A DNA stretch of 36,471 nt from Holdemania filiformis DSM 12042 (lineage in GTDB: Bacteria; Bacillota_I; Bacilli_A; Erysipelotrichales; Erysipelotrichaceae): the NCBI RefSeq assembly GCF_000157995.1, contig NZ_GG657557.1, positions 54,211 to 90,681 of the forward strand. The letters run 5' to 3'. Positions 10,740 to 14,274 of this stretch are shown here, one piece after another. Numbering within the stretch: position 1 is the stretch's first letter; the number at the start of each line of letters is the position of its first letter. The notes beneath the pieces were generated by a model. It did not search any database, was not told where the DNA came from, and was given only the letters and a program-made list of their open reading frames with translations. The translations under genes were made by a program, and so were the position numbers.

Positions 10740-11483
10740 CTATTCGTTTTCCGTGATTCCATAAACACGCTGGCAGTTGCCGCCCATGAGCGCGGCTAAA
10801 ACTTCCGGCTCTTGATGATGAATTGAGTATTCAAACGCCCGCCGGATTTTTTCCTGTTCCATCGAATACATATAGAACGGAAAGTCTGCACCCATAATCA
10901 CTTTATCCGGCACTTCATTAATCGCCCGGCGCACAGCGTTGGACGAAGCGATGCCGGTGTCGAGATATACGTTGGCATTGCGTTTGGCAACCGCAATCGC
11001 GGCGTCTGCCGCCCAGATCGCTCCCATGTGCGCCATTTGGAAAATCGCATGAGGATAGAGCCGGGCTAACGTCTCAACCCGGAAGGGATGAACGTAGGGA
11101 TCGTCCGTCGCACAATGAACCACGACCGGAAGCCGGCGGGCGTCGCAATAGTCCATCAATCCGGAAACCCGGCTTAAATCGTCGATGTGAAATTGAGACA
11201 GCGTCGGATGAAGCTTCAACCCGCGCATGCCGTGTTCCTGAATACATTGCTTCAGTTGGCTGACACAGTCCGGCTGACGGGGATCGATAAACGCCAGCGG
11301 AATGAGAAAACGATTTTCCCGCGCTAATTCAGCTAAGCGCAGATTGTCTTCAAAGCGGACGGAAAGGGGAAACGCCACGACGTGATCCGTGTGCGTCAAC
11401 GCCATTTCCTTCTTTAAATTTTCAAATGAAGCGATCGGCTGACTGCCGTCGAAACAAAGATGGGTATGTCCGTCGATAATCAT
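10740..11483 (-). CDS. Amidohydrolase-2 family metal-dependent hydrolase or decarboxylase
   Basis: A 247-aa TIM-barrel metal enzyme. Ligand motifs are complete: IDGHTHL (HxH) at the N-terminus, GLKLHPT, VVVHCA, QMAHMGA and, near the C-terminus, VIMGADFPFY with the Asp. The start is taken at ATG 11483, eight bases after GGAAGG; a GTG at 11492 would overlap the ribosome binding site. Relatives in this family include lactonases, hydratases and non-oxidative aromatic acid decarboxylases, so here it could act on the aglycone of an aryl β-glucoside or on an acyl group. It sits between the PTS and GH1 genes in one operon, which supports a role in processing the imported compound. The reaction itself is unknown. 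Confidence 0.8.
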   Translation of the reverse strand: MIIDGHTHLCFDGSQPIASFENLKKEMALTHTDHVVAFPLSVRFEDNLRLAELARENRFLIPLAFIDPRQPDCVSQLKQCIQEHGMRGLKLHPTLSQFHIDDLSRVSGLMDYCDARRLPVVVHCATDDPYVHPFRVETLARLYPHAIFQMAHMGAIWAADAAIAVAKRNANVYLDTGIASSNAVRRAINEVPDKVIMGADFPFYMYSMEQEKIRRAFEYSIHHQEPEVLAALMGGNCQRVYGITENE

Positions 11484-11525
11484 CAAGCTCACCTTCCTTT
11501 ATCACTCCCAGGGAGTCTTTCAACA

Positions 11526-11981
11526 TCAGATAATCGCGATCAGGTTATCGCCGGTGTTCACATGCCGCTGCTGCGTCTTGACGAATTCGCTGGCTCCCGC
11601 ACCGTTGGTTATAATCACCGGGGTATCCAGACGCACGCCTTTGTCCTGCAGCCGTTTCAGATTAAACGTCATGACCACGTCGCCGCGCTGAACCTGATCG
11701 CCTTCCTTCACTTTCACTTTAAACTCATTTTCAATTTTTTCTGAATCCAAACCGACATGAACCAGGATTTCCATTCCGGATGCCGTGCGGAATCCGATCG
11801 CGTGTTTTGTCGGCGGAATGACGATCACCTCGCCATCCGCCGGTGCACAGACTTTTCCTTCTTCCGGGATAATTACAATCCCGTCGCCCATCATTTTTGT
11901 TGAGAACACAGGATCACCGATATCCTCCAACGCTTTTAACGAACCAGTAACCGGGCTGGTAATTATTGATTCGTTTACGCT
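11526..11981 (-). CDS. PTS EIIA domain in the -1 frame of EIIBC (no usable start)
   Basis: A glucose-type EIIA domain (ITSPVTGSLKALED, FSTKMMGDGI, TKHAIGF and LVHVGLDSE, the last holding the phosphorylated His). The frame is open from inside the end of EIIBC down to the stop at 11526. No ATG or GTG with a ribosome binding site exists before the domain begins. A TTG at 11930 would cut off its first β-strand and has no Shine-Dalgarno. Reading through A AAA AAA at 11987-11981 with a -1 shift continues into this frame at AGC (11981), adding 151 residues and giving 617 aa in total. The annotation from 11981 therefore describes the shifted reading. A single lost A in the run would look the same. 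Confidence 0.8.
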   Translation of the reverse strand, partial: SVNESIITSPVTGSLKALEDIGDPVFSTKMMGDGIVIIPEEGKVCAPADGEVIVIPPTKHAIGFRTASGMEILVHVGLDSEKIENEFKVKVKEGDQVQRGDVVMTFNLKRLQDKGVRLDTPVIITNGAGASEFVKTQQRHVNTGDNLIAII

Positions 11982-11987
11982 TTTTTT
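11938..11987 (-). promoter_or_regulatory. Candidate -1 ribosomal frameshift signal joining EIIBC and EIIA
   Basis: Zero-frame codons read CCA AAA AAA GCG TAA, so the heptamer A AAA AAA (11987-11981) fits X XXY YYZ and the stop follows after one codon. Five bases later AACGAA (11975-11970) can pair with TTCGTT (11943-11938), with an inner CCAG/CTGG stem inside, a spacing usual for stimulatory structures. Known: such heptamers shift in bacterial dnaX and IS genes. Inferred: the same here. Confidence 0.45.
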
Positions 11988-13378
11988 GGTGCAGAGTCCG
12001 CCTTTTTTGTTTCGTCTTCGAATCCCGATTCGTCAAACCCCAGCAGCCAGGTGGCCGCAAAGGTGACGATGATCGTTACGGCAACGGCGCCCAGCGACAA
12101 ATAGAAATTATTCGGCCGGGCCCCTGTCGGATCCAGGAAATTCAGCATCGTGAAGAATCCCGGCGCGCCGAAGGCGTAGGTCACGATGCGTGTAATTGCG
12201 CAATACAGACCGTTGGCAGCACAGCCGATGAAGGTTGCGATCAGCGGCTTTTTCAAGCGCAGGCATAAGCCGTACAGCGCCGGCTCCGTCGTGCCGGTCA
12301 GAAATGCGGTTATGCCGGTTGAGAAGGCCGTTGACTTCAACGATTTATTCTTGGCTTTCAGGAAAACGGCCAGTGAAACAGCAAATTGCGAGAAATTCAT
12401 ACCGATGAACGCCGGGAATAAAATACCGTCGAACCCCAGGGTGGCAAATTCCGTCATCACCAGAGGCAGTAAGGCCAGATGACTGCCGGTTAAAACAAGG
12501 AATGGCGTTATGATACCCACAACCAGAACCGCCGCGCCCGGCATTGTGTTGTTCATCCAGGTAATCACATAACTCATCAAGGTTCCGACCCAGGAACCGG
12601 CCGGACCCGTTACGCACAACATCACGGGGACCATAACCATCATCGTTAAAAACGGCACCATGACATAGCGAATGGAATCCGGACAATACTTTTCAATAAA
12701 CCGATTGACATAAGACATTGCCCAGCACGTCAGGATCATTGGGATTAGCGAAGACGCATAGCTGGCAGCCGTAACCGGCAAGCCGAACAGCGTGATCGGA
12801 GTTCCTGTTTCCACCAGCGCGGTAAAGCTTGGATAGTTCAGCACACCGGCCAGCGCGATGGTCATGACCGGATTCAGTTTCCAATGTTTCGCGGAAGTGT
12901 ACGCGACGATAAACGGCAGGAAATACAACGGAGCCTGCGACACGCTGTAAATAATCTGATAAGTCGTGCTCTCCTCAGCCAGCCCCAGCAGTTTACCTAT
13001 TGTAGCGAGCGCGGAGAACAAGCCGGCTGCGACAATCGCCGGAACCGCCGGACCCATAATATCTGAAAGAACGTTTAGCACGACCCCAAACACATTGCCT
13101 GCAACCCGGCCGCCTTCCTCTCCAACCTTCACGTCATAGTTGGCCACGATCGCAGCATAGACTTTGGATACGTTGTTGCCGACGATGATCTGAAATCCGC
13201 CGATCGCTTTGACGACGTCCAGAACGCCGTCGATCTTTTTGATCGCCTCCACATCAAAGTTTTCTTCATGATTGACGCGCAGACGCAGACGGGTAGAACA
13301 GTGATTCAATGACGCGATGTTTCCCACACCGCCGACATGGCTCATAATTTCTTTTGCCAGCCGCAGATTGTTATCCAT
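11975..13378 (-). CDS. PTS β-glucoside transporter EIIBC
   Basis: A 467-aa permease of the β-glucoside family with EIIB (Cys27 in SLNHCSTRLRLRV) and a ten-segment EIIC that includes GTTEPALYG, the counterpart of GITEPTLYG in the paralogue. The ATG at 13378 has AGGAGG seven bases upstream; a TTG six bases further out is less likely. It follows licT2 by 50 bases and lacks a RAT of its own, so it depends on the leader of licT2. The protein stops after the linker ADSAPKKA, exactly where the 613-aa paralogue continues into EIIA, and the missing EIIA lies in the -1 frame. Without a shift, EIIBC would need EIIA from another protein. The sugar is probably a β-glycoside different from that of the first operon. 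Confidence 0.92.
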   Translation of the reverse strand: MDNNLRLAKEIMSHVGGVGNIASLNHCSTRLRLRVNHEENFDVEAIKKIDGVLDVVKAIGGFQIIVGNNVSKVYAAIVANYDVKVGEEGGRVAGNVFGVVLNVLSDIMGPAVPAIVAAGLFSALATIGKLLGLAEESTTYQIIYSVSQAPLYFLPFIVAYTSAKHWKLNPVMTIALAGVLNYPSFTALVETGTPITLFGLPVTAASYASSLIPMILTCWAMSYVNRFIEKYCPDSIRYVMVPFLTMMVMVPVMLCVTGPAGSWVGTLMSYVITWMNNTMPGAAVLVVGIITPFLVLTGSHLALLPLVMTEFATLGFDGILFPAFIGMNFSQFAVSLAVFLKAKNKSLKSTAFSTGITAFLTGTTEPALYGLCLRLKKPLIATFIGCAANGLYCAITRIVTYAFGAPGFFTMLNFLDPTGARPNNFYLSLGAVAVTIIVTFAATWLLGFDESGFEDETKKADSAPKKA

Positions 13379-13428
13379 TTCCAATCCTCCTCATAATTTA
13401 TCTCTACAATACAGGCGCCTTTGTATCG

Positions 13429-14274
13429 TTAAGATCTGTTTTTAAGCAGCCGAGCCAGATGGATGATCAGATACATGCGATCCGAATCCGTCAGTTCGTA
13501 GTTGTAGTCGAGCAGCAATCTTGCGTTCATGTGATTTAAAAACTGGTTGATCTGAGGGTATTGCGCGACCAGCATTTCATACAGACTGTCGCCTTGCAGA
13601 CTTTGATTCGTCTGCCGGCCCTGCAGCAGCATGCGCTGGATAAAAAATTTTAAATGGGTTACTAACCGCGAATAATCGAATGTCGTCGTATCTAAATGAA
13701 GTTGAAAGTAGTCTTCAATCGTCGTGATGATCATTTTTAAGACTTCCAGCATTTCGTGAAAATCAACCGGGCCTTCCTGACTTTCGCTGCTTACAATGTG
13801 GAAAGTAACGAAACCTGCTTCATTTTCGTCCAAGTTTGATTGGAATCGTTGATTCACGAGTTGAATGGCTTGCCGGCCGATATCGTATTCCTTCGGATAA
13901 AACTGACGGATTTCATTCAGCATCAAATTAGGAGTGCTGATGTTTTTTTGCGATTTGATCACAGAGTAATGAATGTGATCCGCCAGCCGCACGATCACTC
14001 CGTCATCCAGCTTGCATGCCAGACATTCTTCCGCCGCGACTTTGATCTCCTTGGCAATCTCAAAATAATCCAGCGGGATATCGGCCAAAAGTGCTTCGAC
14101 CTTATTCCGGTCCTGCTTGTCTTTTAAGACAAAGACTTTAATGATCTGTTCCGGATCGATCTCGTCGTACATCGTCTTTTTAAAAGCGATCCCCTTACCG
14201 ATGACGATCATTTCCTTGTTGTGTTCATCCTTTGTAATGACAGCGTTGTTGTTTAAAATACGATAGATTAACAT
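13429..14274 (-). CDS. licT: Transcriptional antiterminator, BglG/LicT family (second copy)
   Basis: A 281-aa antiterminator, the same length as the first copy when that one is started at TTG. The CAT RNA-binding domain spans about residues 1-55 (ILNNNAVITKDEHNKE, VIGKGIAF), followed by two PRDs with His in LADHIHY, FVTFHIVS, RLVTHLKFF and LIIHLARL. It should bind the RAT at 14337-14359 in its own leader and stop termination at 14301-14347 when its sugar is being transported. GGAAGGAG lies eight bases before the ATG. It heads the six-gene operon down to 7672. Sequence divergence from the first copy, together with the different RAT, suggests separate control of the two systems. Confidence 0.92.
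   Translation of the reverse strand: MLIYRILNNNAVITKDEHNKEMIVIGKGIAFKKTMYDEIDPEQIIKVFVLKDKQDRNKVEALLADIPLDYFEIAKEIKVAAEECLACKLDDGVIVRLADHIHYSVIKSQKNISTPNLMLNEIRQFYPKEYDIGRQAIQLVNQRFQSNLDENEAGFVTFHIVSSESQEGPVDFHEMLEVLKMIITTIEDYFQLHLDTTTFDYSRLVTHLKFFIQRMLLQGRQTNQSLQGDSLYEMLVAQYPQINQFLNHMNARLLLDYNYELTDSDRMYLIIHLARLLKNRS

Follow-up and report, generated by a model that had tools for sequence, protein, structure and literature searches.

One PTS permease gene of Holdemania filiformis DSM 12042 probably gives rise to two proteins, EIIBC and the longer EIIBCA, through programmed -1 ribosomal frameshifting, as judged from sequence comparisons. The mechanism itself is known, and its use in a gene of this class appears to be new. 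Few cellular non-mobile genes of bacteria use programmed -1 frameshifting. The gene pair, EIIBC and EIIA, is located on the minus strand of the analysed 36,471-nt stretch of DNA, hereafter referred to as the window. The features of the locus are listed in Table 1.

Table 1. Features of the EIIBC/EIIA locus of H. filiformis DSM 12042 (positions in the window)
Feature	Position	Strand	Evidence or comparison
Amidohydrolase, immediately downstream	10740..11492	-	Syntenic in Dielma, 59% identity
EIIA domain (glucose/crr type), -1 frame, start-less	11526..11987	-	Pfam PTS_EIIA_1 5e-44; TIGR00830
Predicted hairpin, possibly stimulatory, starting 5 nt past the heptamer	11938..11975	-	-11.3 kcal/mol; lower 9-bp stem same in Dielma
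EIIBC stop codon TAA (zero frame), one codon past the heptamer	11975..11977	-	Dielma equivalent GCT TAA
PTS EIIBC, zero-frame product, 467 aa	11975..13378	-	Pfam PTS_EIIC 4.3e-29, PTS_EIIB 9.1e-10
Slippery heptamer A_AAA_AAA, in phase with EIIBC	11981..11987	-	Same sequence and phase in Dielma fastidiosa L009
SD-like AAAGGCGGA, ending 9 nt before the heptamer	11997..12005	-	-7.0 kcal/mol duplex with anti-SD
Second in-phase heptamer A_AAA_AAG, in the frame overlap	12002..12008	-	Not conserved in Dielma
LicT/BglG-type antiterminator (CAT-RBD + PRD), upstream, same cluster	13429..14274	-	Syntenic in Dielma, 52% identity

The EIIBC gene starts with the ATG at 13378, preceded at a spacing of 7 nt by the ribosome binding site AGGAGG (13386-13391), and its 3' end reads CCA AAA AAA GCG TAA. 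A -1 slip on A_AAA_AAA is predicted to yield a joined EIIBCA protein of 617 aa with the junction peptide SVNESIITSPVTGSLK. This joined protein covers positions 4-617 of the 618 positions of the EIIBCA model TIGR01995 with a score of 585.9 bits, which is below the curated cutoff of 614.7 bits; EIIBC alone scores 418 bits. A fused paralogue encoded in one continuous frame at 324-2165 is 613 aa long and scores 702.3 bits.

The EIIA domain is complete and belongs to the glucose-type PTS EIIA family (NCBIfam TIGR00830, PTBA; score 125.7 bits, cutoff 97.5), with the PDB relatives 1ax3, 2gpr, and 1f3g. Both active-site histidines are present (TKHAIGFR, LVHVGLD). The EIIA frame is open from 45 nt 5' of the heptamer down to the TGA at 11526-11528, and upstream of the domain it contains no ATG, GTG, or TTG. 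A TTG at 11930 was rejected as the start, being located within the domain and not conserved in Dielma. Differences between the EIIA coding sequences of the window and Dielma are distributed over codon positions 1/2/3 as 57/26/84, indicating that the EIIA frame has been under purifying selection since the split. Kept functional and lacking a start, it must therefore be entered from EIIBC. The preliminary description had given the same 3' end of EIIBC, had placed EIIA in a start-less -1 frame open through the A run, and had noted that a 617-aa EIIBCA would be close in length to the 613-aa paralogue; the sequence, the frame coordinates, and both lengths agree with these statements.

Where the two frames overlap, A_AAA_AAA represents an in-phase slippery heptamer of the X_XXY_YYZ type. 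Together with A_AAA_AAG, it accounts for 72% of the heptamers of the IS1 and IS3 families (PMC4066793), and in E. coli A_AAA_AAA is less shifty than A_AAA_AAG (PMC5009743). Two further elements had been overlooked in the preliminary description. The first is the A_AAA_AAG located 21 nt upstream of the conserved heptamer, where a slip would likewise yield full EIIBCA, with another linker. The second is the SD-like AAAGGCGGA. Its Dielma counterpart, CAGTGAGGA, is predicted to pair with the anti-SD at -6.5 kcal/mol and has the same 9-nt spacing. Equally good SD-like matches, with a spacing window of 5-12 nt, occur at 3.6% of the gene positions in the window and at 2.0% in Dielma. An SD-like element located some 10 nt 5' of the slip site is common in this class of signals, though not obligatory, and a candidate for it is present in both genomes.

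The minimum-energy hairpin downstream of the heptamer, AACGAAUCA.UAAUU/GGUUA.UGGUUCGUU, has a predicted energy of -10.0 kcal/mol in Dielma. It begins 5 nt past the heptamer in both genomes; in signals of this class the 3' structure lies about 5-9 nt past the slip site. The changes between the two genomes are mostly in or near the loop, the lower nine pairs being identical; since the pairs are conserved and do not covary, compensatory support for the stem is absent. An AACGAA/TTCGTT stem with inner CCAG/CTGG pairing had been proposed earlier. Its position 5 nt past the heptamer was retained, but the pairing proved to be a weaker alternative (-6.3 vs -11.3 kcal/mol) and was rejected as the main fold. 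Compared with shuffled sequences, the window hairpin has a z of -2.36, with 3 of 200 shuffles as stable, and the Dielma hairpin a z of -2.3; synonymous recoding gave p values of 0.05-0.11. A fold of equal stability is predicted for 17%-23% of the 45-nt stretches of these genes, and for about 4% with the stem in the equivalent place. The predicted fold by itself is thus only moderately unusual. No element was found at the junction by an Rfam search. By analogy, the heptamer, the SD-like sequence, and the hairpin would form a putative three-part -1 signal similar to those of dnaX and IS911.

The same layout was found in Dielma fastidiosa (L009, same assembly as G174), a member of another genus of the same family, whose EIIBC and EIIA are 66% and 58% identical to those of the window. 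The Dielma EIIBC ends with CCA AAA AAA GCT TAA and is followed by a start-less EIIA at -1. The two frames overlap by 22 nt, and A_AAA_AAA is the sole X_XXY_YYZ heptamer within this overlap. The gene order antiterminator, EIIBC, EIIA, amidohydrolase is common to both genomes. The best-conserved 52-nt block (46 of 52 positions) in the 1848-nt alignment of the window and Dielma reaches from the slippery site to the hairpin's 3' end, despite a GC content of 50% in the window and 37% at the Dielma locus. Within it, the codon is identical for 12 of the 14 shared residues, vs 41% elsewhere (P ~0.001). At the sequence level, the same arrangement in a second genus confirms that the layout is beyond chance; the conservation of the site between diverged orthologs is based on one ortholog from a single Dielma assembly. 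Beyond Dielma, orthologs with EIIA were not found in samples of the genus, the family (273 genomes), the class, and the phylum, and the junction DNA pattern was absent from the viral contigs searched. In relatives with 44%-49% identity (L010-L024), EIIA was absent after EIIBC where the downstream sequence was readable. Two other EIIBC relatives, L026 and L027, are reported to contain one in-frame TAA each within the matched stretch. In Dielma, only about 60 C-terminal residues are left of the operon's GH1 gene (L102, about 11190-11590), and two other GH1 genes are located nearby.

The comparison with Dielma bears on the possibility that an in-frame A8 fusion suffered an ordinary one-base loss or an assembly error, EIIA being silent or miscalled. 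A-runs are mutable, the GH1 gene of the Dielma operon has been reduced to a remnant, and broken PTS genes do occur in the H. filiformis genome, since a second PTS gene there, the EIIBC gene L098 (G000:C35:41000-45500), carries a plain indel. However, the same state is present in two genera, and the junction nucleotides are over-conserved. Intact ORFs contain runs of 7-8 A or T at five places in the window and at eight in 20 kb of Dielma, so both assemblies call A7-A8 runs correctly. A plain one-base loss is quite unlikely because purifying selection has continued to act on EIIA in its -1 frame since the split. The preliminary description had proposed examining the A-run in sister genomes, where A8 would speak for an in-frame fusion: the sole EIIA-bearing ortholog in the collections searched, that of Dielma, has A7 in the same phase, followed by the stop, the -1 EIIA, and the hairpin. 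This finding supports the programmed -1 frameshift reading proposed there. Of the two look-alikes it had warned of, one-base loss has become improbable, and slippage of RNA polymerase is disfavoured, with some probability left to it.

Under transcriptional slippage, RNA polymerase would add one A to the A7 run, or drop two, and the A8 transcripts would be translated normally into EIIBCA. This is a known alternative at bacterial A runs (PMC1088944), it would give an identical protein product, and both genera have kept the homopolymer run. However, the run has a length of 7 in both genomes, below the threshold of about 9, sometimes 8 (PMC1088944). In a large share of genomes, slippage is evidently selected against at nine A/T, and runs of 8 A are described as non-slippery in the pseudogene cases studied, though productive in a few organisms (PMC1088944). 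Moreover, slippage by RNA polymerase requires neither a conserved hairpin nor an SD-like element. Since A7 is shorter than 8-9 nt and both of these elements have been kept, a ribosomal slip is preferred, and transcriptional slippage is considered unlikely.

A separate EIIA could also be produced by reinitiation past the EIIBC stop at a near-cognate AUA or AUU/AUC codon. The sequence ATA ATT/ATC is conserved right before the domain in both genomes, and in E. coli translation has been inferred to start at a low level from AUA when an SD-like sequence precedes it (PMC4066793). Nevertheless, an SD at a usable distance is absent here, and the near-cognate codons are located inside the predicted stem. 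A survey of 82 non-fused EIIA ORFs from the family and the class likewise speaks against this route, which is very improbable. A start with an SD was found in 70 of these ORFs. After inspection, a usable ATG or GTG was absent only in the window, Dielma, and one further locus, L075; the remainder have an ATG or GTG start, in most cases preceded by an SD. Three more candidates were rejected: in L127, of a mollicute, TGA is read as Trp, which reveals an ATG start; in L067 the frame break lies inside EIIC; and L098 has an indel without a slip site. The EIIBC of L098 is split within EIIC (HPFL/VMMG), which is probably a real or assembly lesion.

The L075 locus (G283:C34:11400-14600, minus strand) encodes a different EIIBC in another genus. 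This gene ends with ACC ACA AAA AAG TAA, the slip site being A_AAA_AAG, and the EIIA at -1 has TTG without an SD as the sole start candidate. The SD-like element is weak, and the main hairpin is located 23 nt away. No ortholog of L075 was found in the 273 family genomes. It represents a possible independent case of A_AAA_AAG frameshifting in a PTS permease, or it could be an indel.

The proposed programmed -1 frameshifting has several counterparts. As at the PTS site, where the hairpin is a prediction, dnaX of E. coli contains an in-phase A_AAA_AAR with an SD-like sequence upstream and a hairpin a few nt downstream, and in the reversed dnaX of a few bacteria the zero-frame stop directly follows the shift site, so that the longer protein, tau, needs the shift (PMC5009743). 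Unlike in dnaX, a different gene, the last letter of the PTS heptamer is A, not G, and the shift would add a catalytic PTS domain. Transposases of the IS3 and IS1 families (e.g., IS911) also use A_AAA_AAA or A_AAA_AAG with SD-like and stem-loop stimulators, two ORFs being fused at -1 (PMC4066793), whereas the PTS gene is not a mobile element and its upstream ORF encodes a full transporter. The genes copA of E. coli and cso2 of the carboxysome are likewise non-mobile cellular genes that yield two products with a common N-terminus (PMC5009743), but neither is a PTS gene, and the frameshift in copA yields the shorter protein. The beta-glucoside type EIIBCA proteins (TIGR01995, e.g., the paralogue at 324-2165) have the same B-C-A domain order and are in the same length range (617 vs 613 aa), while in the studied gene A is reached only through a change of frame and the joined score is just under the family cutoff. 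No frameshift case in a PTS was found in frameshift surveys, a review, and a full-text search, all covering the main text of freely accessible papers; the preliminary description had also known of no described case among PTS permeases.

According to the proposed scheme, the majority of ribosomes would read the 3' end of the EIIBC gene in the zero frame and release EIIBC of 467 aa. Some ribosomes would pause over A_AAA_AAA, the pause being held by the hairpin, which begins 5 nt downstream, and by pairing of the anti-SD with the SD-like element some 10 nt upstream. Both Lys-tRNAs would then slip back one base, and the ribosome would enter the EIIA frame and produce EIIBCA. A subunit that lacks EIIA could have its EIIB charged by the EIIA of its partner in a mixed dimer, or in trans, and a minor fraction of EIIBCA may therefore suffice. 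The frequency of such slips would set the EIIBC:EIIBCA ratio, which could matter for transport or for signalling to the PRD antiterminator. It is conceivable, though rather doubtful, that the efficiency of frameshifting at the PTS junction is regulated, e.g., by growth state or Lys-tRNA charging, the ratio serving to adjust both sugar uptake and the phosphorylation state of the adjacent PRD antiterminator, and that this trick has arisen more than once in PTS permeases (A_AAA_AAA in the window and Dielma, A_AAA_AAG in L075).

Annotation pipelines would label such genes as EIIBC plus a missing or pseudogene EIIA. If the frameshift takes place, this transporter would have its phosphoryl-donor domain supplied in a set fraction of molecules, and it would make it possible to test directly whether a dimeric permease needs EIIA on each of its subunits.
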